64,000 nucleotides of DNA from an uncultured Burkholderiales bacterium (GTDB lineage: Bacteria; Pseudomonadota; Gammaproteobacteria; Burkholderiales; Thiobacillaceae). The stretch is taken from the NCBI GenBank assembly GCA_937949525.1, contig CALEDT010000049.1, positions 1 through 64,000 on the forward strand, given 5' to 3'. The position numbers were made by a program, and so were the translations under genes. Below, in pieces: positions 18,076 through 51,894 of this stretch; position 1 is the first letter of the stretch; every line of letters starts with the position of its first letter. Below the pieces are notes generated by a model. It saw nothing but the letters and a program-made list of their open reading frames with translations. It did not search any database and had not been told where the DNA came from.

Positions 18076-18555
18076 ATGAAAGGCGACAAAAAGGTCATCC
18101 AGTTGCTCAACAAGGCGCTCACCGTCGAGCTCACCGCCATCAACCAGTATTTCCTGCACGCGCGCATGTACAAGAACTGGGGCCTCACCGCCCTGGGACG
18201 GCACGAGTACGAGGAATCCATCGAGGAGATGAAACACGCCGACAAGCTGATCGAGCGCATCCTGTTCCTCGAAGGGCTGCCCAACCTGCAGACCCTCAAC
18301 AAGCTGGCGATCGGCGAGAACGTGCCGGAATGCCTGGCCGGCGATCTCAAACTGGAGCTGGCCGGCCGCGAGCTGTACCTGGAGGCCATCCAGTACTGCG
18401 AGTCGGTGCGCGATTACGTGTCGCGGGAAATCCTGGACGACATCCTCGAGGACACCGAGGCGCACATCGACTTCCTGGAGACCCAGATCGAACTGATCGA
18501 CAAGGTCGGTCTGCAGAACTACCTGCAAAGCGCGATGGGTGAACTGGGCAGTTGA
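18076..18555 (+). CDS. bfr: bacterioferritin
   Basis: A heme-containing ferritin subunit that oxidises and stores iron in a 24-mer. The 159 residues carry the ferroxidase ligands Glu18, Glu51, His54, Glu94-region and the '[10 protein letters not shown]' Glu/His pair, and the axial heme ligand Met52 ('EEMKHADKL'). The start has GAGAGGAG upstream. With bfd it makes a storage-and-release pair; only bfd has a clear Fur box, which suits iron release on starvation. It is convergent with the next gene. Confidence 0.95.
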
Positions 18556-18597: not shown

Positions 18598-19851
18598 TCA
18601 GCCTGTCGCCTCGGCCGCGCGCGCCGCGGCGTCCATCGCGCGCAAACCTTCCTCCACGCCGGCGGCATGGGTCAGGCGCGCGACGTTGTCCTTGGTGAAG
18701 AAACCCTGGAAGTCGCCGAAGCGCTGCACGTACTCGATGATCAGGCTGGAGTACTCGGATGCGCTGGAGAAGATCTGCTTCAACCCGGCCTCCTCGCTGC
18801 CGATCACGTCCAGCAGGAAGCTCTGGCCGCAATCGCGCAGGGCATCCACCACGTAGTCGATGTTGGCCTTGCCGGCGGTGCGGCCGTCGTTCACCGCCAC
18901 GGCCAGGTGGTGCAGGCGCGGGCCGTAGTTGCGCACGAAGGCTTCCGTGGGCGAGGGCAGTTGCAGCAGGTGGTTGACGAAGTAGGGATGATTGGCGGCG
19001 GTGAACACCTTGGCCGGGCTCTCCAGCTCGTTGGCGTGGTGCACGCTCTTGGTGACGTTGGTCGAGGAATTCTGGTCGGCGATGTCGTAGGAGCCCCAGT
19101 AGTAGTAGCTGGTCAAGGTCAGGTACTCCAGGATCGCCGCCTCGCGGTTCTGGCTGTACACGCGCGTGGCCAGGTGATCGATGGGCAGCAGCCGCTCGGC
19201 CAGCCCGAGCCGCTGCTGCGTGTCCTTGGCCGCCTCATAGGCGGCCTGCACGTCGGCGCGGATGCTGGACAGGCCCAGCGCATACACGCGCAGTTCGTCC
19301 TCCGGGCGCTCCCAGTAGCCGACGATGTTGTGGGTATACGGACTGGGTTTCGCCACCGCCATGTTGCCCGGCAGTTCCAGCTTGCGGATCTGGTCCTGGT
19401 TGAAGAAGCGCACGTCGCGCGCCTTTTGCAGCTCCACCACGTCGTGCAGGCTGGTGACGCGGAAGATCTCGCCCATGTAGCGCGAGTTGGGCTTCTGCGC
19501 GCCGATCGGATAGACCTCGTTGAGGCTGCGGAAGATGCCGCGGGTGTTGGCATCCTTGACCTCGCGCACCAGCACGTCCGGTGCGCGCATGTCGATGCGC
19601 AGCACGTGGGTGTAATGGCTTTCCGACTCCAGCGTCACCAGATAATGGTAGGGCGTCATCAGGCACAGCTCGCCGACGTAGGCGATGGAATGACCGGGCT
19701 CCACGGTGATCATCAGGGTGTCGATCTGCCGGATCCGGCTGGTGAGCCCGCCGCGGTCGCGCTCCTCCAGGAGCCGCACCAGATACTCCTCGAAGAAGTC
19801 CGAATTCTGCTTGTCGCCGTAGCGGGGAAAGTCGAGCGAGGCGGAGATCAT
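18598..19851 (-). CDS. HPPD-like VOC-superfamily protein in the Anbu locus
   Basis: A 417-residue protein, last gene of a three-gene minus-strand operon; its ATG overlaps the stop of the alpha-E gene. Residues 1-200 match nothing I recognise. Residues 220-400 follow the C-terminal half of 4-hydroxyphenylpyruvate dioxygenase: 'IDHLATRVY' (His226), 'GPRLHHLAVAV' (His315) and 'IIEYVQRFGDFQGFF' (Glu373). These correspond to the two histidines and one glutamate that hold Fe(II) in HPPD. The order and spacing suggest a real metal centre and perhaps dioxygenase activity, but the substrate is unknown and tyrosine catabolism genes are absent. The usual third partner of Anbu loci is a transglutaminase-like peptidase, which this is not. 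Confidence 0.65.
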   Translation of the reverse strand: MISASLDFPRYGDKQNSDFFEEYLVRLLEERDRGGLTSRIRQIDTLMITVEPGHSIAYVGELCLMTPYHYLVTLESESHYTHVLRIDMRAPDVLVREVKDANTRGIFRSLNEVYPIGAQKPNSRYMGEIFRVTSLHDVVELQKARDVRFFNQDQIRKLELPGNMAVAKPSPYTHNIVGYWERPEDELRVYALGLSSIRADVQAAYEAAKDTQQRLGLAERLLPIDHLATRVYSQNREAAILEYLTLTSYYYWGSYDIADQNSSTNVTKSVHHANELESPAKVFTAANHPYFVNHLLQLPSPTEAFVRNYGPRLHHLAVAVNDGRTAGKANIDYVVDALRDCGQSFLLDVIGSEEAGLKQIFSSASEYSSLIIEYVQRFGDFQGFFTKDNVARLTHAAGVEEGLRAMDAAARAAEATG

Positions 19852-20816
19852 TGGGTCATTCCCTGTTCCTGGATGGCGGTCTTCTGGTGCAGATAGAAAT
19901 ACTGCCGCGAGATGGCGTCGTGCAGCGCGGCAAGATCGGCCTGCAACTGGTCGAGATTGTGGTGCAGGGTCTCCGGCGAAACGTCGCTGAAATCCATGGC
20001 GCCGAGCCGGCGCCAGGCGTGGCGCGCCACGTTGAGCGGCTTGTGGTAGTTGACCAGTTCCGACAGGCAGCTCTCGATTTCGCCCAGGCAGTGTTCCACC
20101 GTGCGCGGGAAATGCGGATCGGTGAGCAGGAACCTGACCACGGCCGGACCGGACACGTGCACGCCGACATGCTGGCGATACATCTGGTAGGCCGACAACG
20201 CGTTCAGCGTACTCATCCACAGGCGTTCGCGCGCCGCCTCGGCGGCGGCCGGGTCATCCGGCAGGCGCACGGCGGAGTTGACGTCGATGATGCGCGTGGT
20301 CATGTCGGCGCGCTCCAGATTGCGTCCCAGCTTGGTGAACTGGTAGGCGAGGTCGTGGCTCATCGAACCCATCAGCAGACCGATCACCGATTGGCGCCGT
20401 TCGATGATGCCGTTGAGTACCTCGTAACGTTGGCTGCGGCCATGCGTGGCGCGCGCGGCGTTGTCGCGAACGTACAGGTACAGCGCGTTGATGCGTTCCC
20501 AGATCTCCATGGGCAGCACTTCGCGGAAGGTGCGCGTGTTCTCGCGCGCGCTGTGGATGCTGGCGATGATGGAGCCGGGGTTGCGTGCATCCAGGATCAG
20601 GAAGCGCAGGATGTCGGCTTCGTTGGCGCTGGCGTAATGCTCGTGATAGAGCTGGTCCAGGCCGGCCACCTTGAGCAGCACGTCCCAGCCGATGGATGCG
20701 GCGCGCGGCAGATCCAGCAGCACCTGCGTGGTGCTGTTGATGAAGCGCGCGGTGTTCTCCGCGCGCTCCAGGTAGCGCGCCATCCAGTAGAGGTTTTCGG
20801 CGACTCGGGAAAGCAT
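19848..20816 (-). CDS. alpha-E domain protein (Anbu locus)
   Basis: 322 residues, all helical in appearance, beginning 'MLSRVAENLYWMARYLERAENTAR', the hallmark of the alpha-E family. Related proteins are encoded beside circularly permuted ATP-grasp enzymes and are thought to work with them in making or ligating peptide-like products; the biochemistry is not settled. It lies 9 bases downstream of the ATP-grasp gene and overlaps the HPPD-like gene by 4 bases, so all three should be translated together. Confidence 0.88.
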   Translation of the reverse strand: MLSRVAENLYWMARYLERAENTARFINSTTQVLLDLPRAASIGWDVLLKVAGLDQLYHEHYASANEADILRFLILDARNPGSIIASIHSARENTRTFREVLPMEIWERINALYLYVRDNAARATHGRSQRYEVLNGIIERRQSVIGLLMGSMSHDLAYQFTKLGRNLERADMTTRIIDVNSAVRLPDDPAAAEAARERLWMSTLNALSAYQMYRQHVGVHVSGPAVVRFLLTDPHFPRTVEHCLGEIESCLSELVNYHKPLNVARHAWRRLGAMDFSDVSPETLHHNLDQLQADLAALHDAISRQYFYLHQKTAIQEQGMTQ

Positions 20817-20825
20817 GTCGGGCTC

Positions 20826-22271
20826 CTAATCCACGTCGACGATCCAGGTATCCTTGGCGCCGCCGCCCTGCGAAGAATTGACCACCAGCGAGCCGGCCTG
20901 CATGGCCACGCGCGTGAGCCCGCCGGTGGTGGCGTACAGGCGGTCGGATTGCAGCACGAACGGGCGCAGATCCAGGTGGCGCGGCTCCAGGTGGTCGTCG
21001 ATCAGGGTCGGCGCGGTGGACAGCGCCAGCGTCGGCTGGGCCATGTAGTTGCGCGGGTTGGCGCGGATCAGCCCGGCGAAGGTGGCGCGCTCCTGCGCCG
21101 TCGCGCGCGGGCCGATCAGCATGCCGTAGCCGCCCGACTCGTTGGCCGGTTTGACCACCAGGCGGTCCAGGTTGGCGAGCACGTGGTCGCGCTCGTCGTC
21201 GTGCATGCACAGGTAGCTGGGCACGTTGGGGATGATCGGGTCCTGGTCCAGGTAGTAGCGGATCACCTTGGGCACGTAGGCATACACCACCTTGTCGTCG
21301 GCCACGCCGGCGCCGGGGGCATTGGCGATGCCGACGTTGCCGGCGCGCCAGGCGCGCATCAGTCCGGCCACGCCCAGCACGGAATCGGTGCGGAACACCT
21401 CGGGATCGAGAAAGTCGTCGTCGATGCGCCGGTAGATCACGTCCACCCGGCGCAGGCCGGCGATGGTCTTCATGTATACGCAATCGTCGTCGTCGACCAC
21501 CAGGTCGCTGCCCTCCACCAGGAAGGCGCCCATCTTCTGCGCCAGGTAGCTGTGTTCGAAGTAGGCGGAGTTGAAGATGCCCGGCGTCAGCACCGCGATC
21601 ACCGGCCGCACGCCGGTGCGCGGCGACAGCGCTGCCAGCGTGTCGTGCAGCCGGGTGGGGTAATCGTCCACCGGCGCGATGGCGGTCTCCTGGAACAGTT
21701 CGGGAAACAGGCGTTTCATCAACTGGCGGTTTTCCAGCATGTAGGACACGCCGGACGGTACGCGCAGGTTGTCCTCCAATACGTAGACCGTGCCGTCGCG
21801 GTCACGCACCAGATCGGTGCCGCAGACGTGCGCCCACACCCCAAAACGGGGCGTCATGCCCACGCACTGCGCGCGAAAACTGCGCGAGCCCTCCAGCACC
21901 TCGCGCGGGAACACCCCGTCCCGGATGATGCGCTGCGCGTTGTACAGGTCGTCGATGAACAGGTTGAGCGCGGTGAGCCGCTGTTTCAGGCCCGCCTCGA
22001 TGCGCGCCCATTCCTTGCGCGCCATCACCCGCGGAATGATGTCGAACGGCCAGGCGCGGTCGATGTTGCCCGCTTCGCTGTACACCGTGAAGGTGATGCC
22101 CATGGTCATGATCGCCGCGTTGACGGCCTGGCGACGGGCCTCCAGCGTGGCCCCGTCGAGCGCGCCCAGATGCGCGAACAGCGCACGCGCGGCCGGGCGC
22201 GGTTGGCCGTCGGCGTCGATCAGTTCGTCGAAGAATCCCCCGGCATCGTAGCGGCTGGCGGTCAAGCTCAT
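20826..22271 (-). CDS. circularly permuted ATP-grasp protein (Anbu locus)
   Basis: A 481-residue protein of the CP_ATPgrasp type. The start at 22271 has AGGAG nine bases upstream; the frame also opens further up but without a ribosome site. Conserved stretches include 'RAWPFDIIPRVM', 'FIDDLYNAQRI', 'VLEDNLRVPSGVSYMLENR', 'VKPANESGGYGMLIG' and 'NSSQGGGAKDTW', covering the nucleotide-binding and grasp elements. Family members are predicted amide- or peptide-bond-forming ligases. It leads the minus-strand operon and is divergent from the Anbu gene across a 115-bp shared control region. Confidence 0.9.
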   Translation of the reverse strand: MSLTASRYDAGGFFDELIDADGQPRPAARALFAHLGALDGATLEARRQAVNAAIMTMGITFTVYSEAGNIDRAWPFDIIPRVMARKEWARIEAGLKQRLTALNLFIDDLYNAQRIIRDGVFPREVLEGSRSFRAQCVGMTPRFGVWAHVCGTDLVRDRDGTVYVLEDNLRVPSGVSYMLENRQLMKRLFPELFQETAIAPVDDYPTRLHDTLAALSPRTGVRPVIAVLTPGIFNSAYFEHSYLAQKMGAFLVEGSDLVVDDDDCVYMKTIAGLRRVDVIYRRIDDDFLDPEVFRTDSVLGVAGLMRAWRAGNVGIANAPGAGVADDKVVYAYVPKVIRYYLDQDPIIPNVPSYLCMHDDERDHVLANLDRLVVKPANESGGYGMLIGPRATAQERATFAGLIRANPRNYMAQPTLALSTAPTLIDDHLEPRHLDLRPFVLQSDRLYATTGGLTRVAMQAGSLVVNSSQGGGAKDTWIVDVD

Positions 22272-22386
22272 GGTCTGTGCTCCTGTGTCTGGCACCAACC
22301 CTGCAAGGACCATGCCATTGTCGCGGCGCAGCCCGGCCATGGGGTATGCTTGCCCGAACTCACCCCGACCGGAACGAGGAACGACC

Positions 22387-23127
22387 ATGACCTATTGCGT
22401 GGCCATGCTGATGGAAGCCGGCCTGGTATTCCTGTCCGACACCCGCACCAATGCCGGTGTCGACCAGATCAACACCTTTCGCAAGATGAGCGTGTTCTCG
22501 CAGCCCGGCGAGCGCGTGCTGGTGCTGCTGTCCGCCGGCAACCTGGCGCTGACCCAGTCGGTGGTCAGTCTGCTGTACGAGCGGCAGGGGCGCGAGGGCG
22601 AGAACCTGCTCAACGTGCCCAACCTGTTCGAGGCCGCGCGCCACGTCGGCGACTGCCTGCGCGAGGCGCACCGGCGCGACGCCGAGGCGTTCAGGGCGTT
22701 CGGCATCGATTTCAATGCCGGCTTCCTGCTCGGCGGCCAGATCCGCGGCGAGCGCATGCGCCTGTTCAACCTCTATGCCGCCGGCAACTTCGTCGAGGCC
22801 ACGCCCGACACGCCCTATTTCCAGATCGGCGAATCCAAGTACGGCAAACCCATCCTCGACCGCGTGTTCCATTGGCACAGCAGCCTGGAAGAAGCCGCCA
22901 AATGCGCGCTGATCTCCATGGATTCGACGCTGAAGTCCAACCTCTCGGTGGGCATGCCGCTGGACATGCTGTGCTACGCGCGCGATACGCACAAGGTGGA
23001 ACGGCGCGCGCGCATCAACGCCGACGATGCCTATTTCAACCGCCTGCGCGAAGCCTGGGGCGAACGCATCAAGCAGGCTTTCGCCGAACTGCCGGCGTTG
23101 GACTGGGATCGTTGCGGCCACCCCTGA
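22387..23127 (+). CDS. Anbu, proteasome-type peptidase
   Basis: 246 residues of the bacterial ancestral proteasome beta-subunit family. The protein starts 'MTYCVAMLMEAGLVFLSDTRT', so removal of Met1 exposes Thr2, the expected N-terminal nucleophile, and the nearby Asp and Arg of 'SDTRTNAG' fit the family. The rest ('VLLSAGNLALTQSV', 'FLLGGQIRGE', 'GESKYGKPILDR') is typical. GAGGA precedes the ATG. It is divergent from the ATP-grasp/alpha-E/HPPD-like operon. Anbu subunits assemble into open rings; the natural substrate is not known. Confidence 0.9.
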   Translation: MTYCVAMLMEAGLVFLSDTRTNAGVDQINTFRKMSVFSQPGERVLVLLSAGNLALTQSVVSLLYERQGREGENLLNVPNLFEAARHVGDCLREAHRRDAEAFRAFGIDFNAGFLLGGQIRGERMRLFNLYAAGNFVEATPDTPYFQIGESKYGKPILDRVFHWHSSLEEAAKCALISMDSTLKSNLSVGMPLDMLCYARDTHKVERRARINADDAYFNRLREAWGERIKQAFAELPALDWDRCGHP

Positions 23128-51878: not shown

Positions 51879-51894
51879 TGGCACGCAGCTTGCT
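51879..51894 (+). promoter_or_regulatory. sigma-54 promoter, nir-nas operon
   Basis: TGGCACGCAGCTTGCT, a full match to TGGCACG-N4-TTGCW with GG at -24 and GC at -12. Expected start near 51905. Confidence 0.88.

Follow-up and report, generated by a model that had tools for sequence, protein, structure and literature searches.

An HPPD-like protein encoded with the ATP-grasp, alpha-E and Anbu genes of a Thiobacillaceae bacterium

Results

Organisation of the locus

The stretch of DNA analysed here (the window), 64,000 nucleotides of contig CALEDT010000049.1 from an uncultured bacterium of the Thiobacillaceae (GCA_937949525.1), contains an open frame for a protein of 417 residues (P0001; 18598..19851, minus strand) that resembles 4-hydroxyphenylpyruvate dioxygenase (HPPD) and is probably a two-domain protein of the vicinal oxygen chelate (VOC) fold. 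Upstream on the same strand lie the genes for a circularly permuted ATP-grasp enzyme of 481 residues (20826..22271; PF14403, E 1.9e-164; PF04174, E 1.2e-136) and an alpha-E protein of 322 residues (19848..20816; PF04168, E 5.6e-85). Nine bases separate these two genes, and the alpha-E stop overlaps the ATG of the HPPD-like gene by four bases (ATGA), as expected from an earlier note on this sequence, which had described overlapping or abutting genes at 18598-22271. The proteasome-like subunit Anbu (246 residues; 22387..23127, plus strand) is encoded divergently and matches the PDB entries 5loy ('Designed Anbu Protein', E 3.1e-97) and 5nyw (E 2.6e-87).

The locus brings together Anbu, a permuted ATP-grasp and alpha-E, as Anbu operons do. 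Passages of PMC5666114 and PMC6376114 describe such operons as Anbu, a permuted ATP-grasp, alpha-E and a transglutaminase; the window shares the first three and their tight spacing, but differs in that Anbu is divergent and the HPPD-like gene occupies the transglutaminase place, as the earlier note had recognised. From the ATP-grasp start to where the HPPD-like gene ends, no transglutaminase-like gene was found. The 417-residue protein has a single match in its own genome (G000; 64 contigs totalling 2.68 Mb, with a completeness rating of 100%).

Similarity of the C-terminal half to HPPD

Related proteins were collected from 52 loci on named genome contigs, and the window's sequence was aligned with 43 of them (44 sequences in total). 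This alignment was compared by hhalign with a profile of 30 HPPDs, the 30 of 32 HPPD loci examined that passed a script filter. The match had an E-value of 6e-6, a probability of 85% and a score of 49.3 over residues 296-397, and takes in the HPPD tail (QIFS, the Glu ligand, QR-GD, GF and N). By comparison, 200 column-shuffled copies reached at most 31.9, the reversed alignment 17.1, and eight partly overlapping alignments of other genes of the operon 13.4 to 20.6. A 15-sequence subset of the HPPD profile gave an E-value of 7.5e-7 and a consistent alignment; a profile of two HPPDs gave a different alignment of 28 columns (E 0.017) and was set aside. HPPD was the one VOC family profile compared by hhalign. 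Judged by these profile scores the resemblance is beyond chance, which bears out the proposal that the second half of the protein is HPPD-like.

When residues 190-417 were aligned at a relaxed threshold (-mact 0.1), the match widened across the C-terminal domain of HPPD (HPPD residues 124-347), with 24% identity over 190 columns. It places His226, His315 and Glu373, as positions only, on the three HPPD metal ligands, in line with the assignment made in the earlier note. All three are invariant in the 44 aligned sequences, as are many other columns. We accordingly delimit a candidate catalytic-type VOC domain at residues ~215-390 (18682..19209, minus strand). Within the same alignment Gln359 and Phe361 are kept, while several aromatic and Gln positions of the pocket, which in HPPD recognises 4-hydroxyphenylpyruvate and faces its aromatic ring, are changed. 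The aligned ligands and the retention of Gln359 and Phe361 hint at the metal centre of HPPD, and the altered positions at a different substrate.

A degenerate N-terminal domain

The earlier note had called the N-terminal 200 residues unfamiliar, a description that probably does not stand. Residues 1-200 scored 18.3 against the HPPD profile, which is noise level. Yet when the two halves of the family were compared with each other, residues 30-200 aligned colinearly with residues 215-400 over 143 columns (hhalign score 23.5), a score reached by none of 100 shuffles (best 21.7). In this alignment Thr45 and Gly178 occupy the positions of His226 and Glu373, and for this reason no such metal site is expected in the N-terminal half. 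The low-confidence full-length model described below has a beta-alpha-beta-beta-beta run at residues 43-98, a block with a predicted local distance difference test (pLDDT) value of 50 to 75. Together these data are suggestive, though not proof, of a second, degenerate VOC domain at residues ~35-186 (19294..19749, minus strand), as in HPPD.

Structural models and family searches

Two AlphaFold runs, on the full-length protein and on the C-terminal domain, were searched with Foldseek. The ten best hits of the full-length model were all HPPD or hydroxymandelate synthase, with unrelated proteins from rank 11 and methylmalonyl-CoA epimerases among the hits below the top ten. Of the paired modules of a VOC protein, one beta-alpha-beta-beta-beta module is visible in the full-length model and none in that of the C-terminal domain.

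Several of these results speak against an HPPD-type enzyme. Both models are of low confidence (mean pLDDT 45.4 for the full-length protein and 48.7 for the C-terminal domain), and the HPPD hits have a best E-value of 0.011 and TM-scores of 0.13-0.21, none reaching E <=0.001. The C-terminal-domain model is nearly all helical, lacks a VOC fold and gave nothing useful in Foldseek. In the sequence comparison, hhalign at its default setting covers residues 296-397 alone, so that His226 is aligned only under the relaxed threshold, and residues 200-300 by themselves give no HPPD signal. The aligned sequences are 66-90% identical to that of the window and come from non-independent loci, which makes invariance weak evidence, and the diversity of the alignment is low (effective number of sequences, Neff, 1.6). 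No curated Pfam or NCBIfam model reaches its cut-off for the window's protein or the 44 members. The two models conflict, and neither is decisive.

Below the cut-offs, Pfam matched Glyoxalase_4 to the window's protein (E 0.15) and to 22 of the 44 members (best E 0.024), and one member weakly matched a methylmalonyl-CoA epimerase model (E 0.16). NCBIfam gave no match for the window's protein, and its HPPD model TIGR01263 was absent from the hits of the 44 members and had no match in the window's genome; a sequence search of the PDB likewise found no match to the protein. A hidden Markov model of HPPD gave 10.0 and 8.1 bits for the best two single relatives, but one of 880 shuffles reached 7.7 and we did not use this comparison as evidence. 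Searches of viral contigs and plasmids, which covered no phage collection, returned no relatives of the 417-residue protein; nor were HPPDs found in viral contigs.

Association with the Anbu system

The neighbourhood of the gene was examined at the 52 related loci in fetched stretches reaching up to 7 kb to each side. Alpha-E lies on the same strand within 1.3 kb upstream at 42 loci, and at least one of ATP-grasp, alpha-E and the transglutaminase-DUF2126 gene is present at 46. Anbu itself was found in only 14 of the 52 stretches, and transglutaminase-DUF2126 directly follows the HPPD-like gene in 21. Of the six loci with no partner, L047, L055 and L065 are on short contigs. The idea of the HPPD-like gene as a general replacement for the transglutaminase was rejected because many loci keep both genes. 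A Methylotenera locus has an additional pair of transglutaminase-like genes upstream of its ATP-grasp operon (L043:1564-3231), for a total of four transglutaminase-type genes, and other Methylotenera loci have similar ones.

Whole-genome searches for Anbu and DUF2126 covered 50 of the 52 carriers, omitting those of L067 and L068. Anbu is encoded in 47 of these genomes (not in those of L033, L044 and L055), including that of L035, where it is in pieces, and that of L053, where the match is weaker (E 7.6e-45). DUF2126 is present in 49, the exception being the genome of L035. Alpha-E was found in all 11 genomes where none had been seen beside the HPPD-like gene. The alpha-E genes of G096 and G270 share a contig with the HPPD-like gene, at a distance of no more than ~8 kb, and in G096 the HPPD-like gene is adjoined by ATP-grasp and DUF2126.

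Among the genomes of 61 relatives, 16 carry the HPPD-like gene. Alpha-E, fused forms counted, is encoded by 16 of 16 carriers versus 18 of 45 non-carriers, and Anbu by 15 of 16 versus 16 of 45 (one-sided Fisher tests, which ignore shared ancestry, p = 1e-5 for alpha-E and 5e-5 for Anbu; restricted to the genus, 0.007 and 0.012). In a sample across the phylum, 7 of 398 genomes have the gene. The association with the Anbu system recurs, but the immediate neighbours of the gene are mostly ATP-grasp, alpha-E and transglutaminase-DUF2126; the proposed tight link to Anbu needs qualifying to that extent.

The HPPD-like gene is an accessory rather than a core member of the system. Four genomes of the window's genus (G005, G009, G011 and G015) carry separate ATP-grasp, alpha-E and Anbu genes without it, and two of them (G009 and G015) are otherwise arranged as in the window. 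Where present it is well conserved: across 18 loci compared, the protein is 67-91% identical to that of the window, and in every case its conservation exceeds that of ATP-grasp, of alpha-E and of any Anbu present. Alpha-E falls at either 53-84% or 31-34% identity. At the seven loci in the lower range (methylotrophs, a Gallionella and a Sulfuriferula), where ATP-grasp is 49-53% identical, the HPPD-like protein is still 67-77% identical. In comparisons with two methylotroph copies the third codon positions agree at 44% and 34%, and this divergence beneath a conserved protein indicates purifying selection on the protein sequence.

Three further observations concern neighbouring genes. In the window, a bacterioferritin gene (18076-18555, plus strand; TIGR00754, E 8.3e-73) is convergent with the HPPD-like gene; it was considered as a partner and rejected, with no match beside the gene in the 52 related loci. 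At three Methylococcaceae loci (L047, L055 and L057) the HPPD-like gene adjoins a gene of one cluster, whose L057 member is a malic enzyme by Pfam, run on L057 only. The window's genome also has a second system (G000:C3; L083:4299-7723) in which a fused ATP-grasp/alpha-E gene adjoins a transglutaminase-like gene; the 13 kb fetched contain neither an HPPD-like gene nor a sigma-54-type match of at least 10 positions.

Sigma-54-type promoters

Between Anbu and ATP-grasp, two sigma-54-type sites, each matching 10 of 11 scored positions, overlap back to back at 22290-22317. One, TGGCAT-N5-TTGCA (22302..22317, minus strand), precedes the operon of ATP-grasp, alpha-E and the VOC protein, and the other, TGGCAC-N5-CTGCA (22290..22305, plus strand), is directed towards Anbu. 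The consensus given in PMC3224663 is TGGCACG-N4-TTGC. The Anbu-directed site is the sole match to TGGCAC-N5-YTGCA in the window, where 0.13 are expected by chance and 12 of 100 shuffles contain one. Locus L022 has the same overlapping, opposed pair, with both sites at 11/11. Two other 11/11 matches lie in the window at 51879 and 58216 (plus strand). The window's genome encodes rpoN.

A match of 10 or 11 positions lies within 260 bases around the ATP-grasp start at 33 of 40 loci; the remaining 12 of the 52 have no ATP-grasp gene, or one that is fused, truncated or placed at the edge of a contig, and the loci counted are related and non-independent. Such matches occurred in 289 of 20000 random stretches and in 21 of 329 stretches before other predicted open reading frames. 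Where the HPPD-like gene is the first of its own unit, six of 12 loci (L042, L046, L047, L052, L055 and L057) have a match of at least 9 positions 54 to 67 bases upstream, compared with 888 of 20000 random 280-base stretches from these loci. In L055 and L057 the site matches 10/11 and is 54 bp upstream; that of L047 is weaker.

Control of Anbu by sigma-54 is already known, and the extension to the HPPD-like protein is the new part. PMC12316311 includes Anbu (COG3484) in its sigma-54 regulon for alpha-, beta- and gammaproteobacteria. According to PMC8050072 (Table 2), Pseudomonas putida PP_2685, a bacterial proteasome beta subunit that we take to be Anbu, and PP_2688, a permuted ATP-grasp, are raised on nitrate relative to ammonium by 4.4 and 4.0 log2 units. 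NtrC-like palindromes were sought at 21 loci. Seven loci, none of them in the window's genus, have a site with no more than 2 mismatches, a level that none of 200 shuffles of one locus attained; three others, also from outside that genus, have one with 3 mismatches, as do 7 of 200 shuffles.

Discussion

These data allow us to hypothesise that the 417-residue protein is an HPPD-like Fe(II) oxygenase, accessory to and co-regulated with the Anbu, ATP-grasp, alpha-E and transglutaminase-DUF2126 system, perhaps under nitrogen limitation. We put the probability of this explanation at about 0.5. In HPPD, the 2-oxo acid of the substrate binds Fe(II), O2 is split, CO2 is lost and the remainder is hydroxylated. 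The present protein would be a two-domain VOC enzyme of the same type, its degenerate N-terminal domain followed by a C-terminal domain predicted from the aligned ligands to bind a single metal (Fe(II) being the likeliest) through His226, His315 and Glu373. Given that genes of the system share sigma-54-type promoters, it would be produced together with the enzymes that form and cleave amide bonds, probably under nitrogen shortage. In the manner of HPPD, it may decarboxylate a substrate bearing its own 2-oxo acid and oxidise it with O2. That substrate could be made or released by the amidoligase and Anbu enzymes, or could be the carbon skeleton remaining after nitrogen removal; we infer that its likeliest role is to oxidise a 2-oxo acid that the Anbu system produces or exposes.

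The strongest alternative, although a doubtful one, is that the enzyme belongs to the same regulon and a separate pathway. It would then serve nitrogen-limited growth, for example by clearing 2-oxo acids from deamination, sharing promoters and, in many cases, an operon with the Anbu system without using its products. In favour of this alternative, L028, L040 and L057 show no linked partner in 7 kb to either side, L055 and L057 carry their own site, and G009 and G015 have the Anbu operon without the gene; the three unlinked loci and these two genomes also count against the explanation that we favour. The promoters are not universal either, with seven of the 40 ATP-grasp genes lacking a site (L025, L026, L027, L030, L031, L034 and L068) and the own-unit loci L028, L040, L071 and L150-L152 having no match within 250 bases. 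Nor is there a good NtrC-like site in the window (5 mismatches) or in six loci of its genus (4 to 6), and NtrC control in that genus is not claimed on account of these mismatches. However, a general enzyme of nitrogen limitation would need neither alpha-E, found in 11 of 11 genomes where none had been seen beside the gene, nor Anbu, found in 47 of 50 carriers.

It is unlikely that the protein has the VOC fold with another chemistry (epimerase, lyase, isomerase or hydrolase), or a binding or assembly role, its metal being other than redox-active iron. The sub-threshold matches to the general Glyoxalase_4 model and, in one member, to the epimerase model would fit this, as would the epimerases among the lower Foldseek hits and the loss of several aromatic positions of the HPPD substrate pocket; against it stand the match to the HPPD tail and the agreement at all three ligand positions, in a comparison confined to HPPD among VOC profiles. 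A convergent or spurious motif in a protein outside the VOC fold, to which the poor models, the unmatched C-terminal model and the Neff of 1.6 might point, is very improbable given that none of the 200 shuffles or eight control alignments approaches the HPPD score, that HPPD structures head the fold search of the full-length model and that the two halves align colinearly.

Compared with HPPD (TIGR01263; 1cjx, 9qmf) and hydroxymandelate synthase (2r5v, 3zgj), the HPPD-like Fe(II) oxygenase proposed here would share the likely two-domain layout, the His-His-Glu positions and the tail with QIFS, Glu, QR-GD and GF. It differs in falling below the TIGR01263 and Pfam cut-offs, in its 24% identity and in its place in an amidoligase operon. 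Hydroxyglutarate synthase (6w1h), which we take to be a VOC-like metal enzyme, offers a second comparison. The title of 6w1h, a 2-oxoadipate complex, indicates binding of a 2-oxo acid, and the entry was rank 30 in the fold search; unlike HPPD, it is likened by fold search and not by profile, and the match is weak (E 0.4).

More tentatively, the Anbu system could be a pathway of nitrogen limitation in which a metabolite or peptide with amide links is assembled or trimmed, and in these bacteria a dedicated HPPD-like Fe(II) dioxygenase would oxidise that compound as a new substrate class. The word 'dioxygenase' is absent from the main text of PMC5666114, PMC6376114, PMC8665760 and PMC12316311. 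The titles and abstract openings of the open-access papers listed yielded no link of an HPPD-like or VOC protein with Anbu; subscription papers were mostly outside this search and a prior description is possible. If the explanation is right, this dedicated oxidation would bring a redox step into an Anbu system for the first time in the literature covered.

As reported in PMC6376114, Anbu of three organisms was negative in peptidase tests, and pull-downs gave no specific partner among the operon proteins. A partner with predictable chemistry (a metal, O2 and a 2-oxo acid) would provide an assay that does not require the proteolytic substrate to be guessed, and a little-known HPPD-like protein travelling with the cluster across many bacteria would be a new chemical handle on its role. 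In L055 and L057, and more weakly in L047, an unlinked HPPD-like gene has a sigma-54-type site of its own, which ties it to promoters of this kind whatever its position. Relatives of the protein occur in named Methylomonas strains, a genus in which genetics should be feasible.

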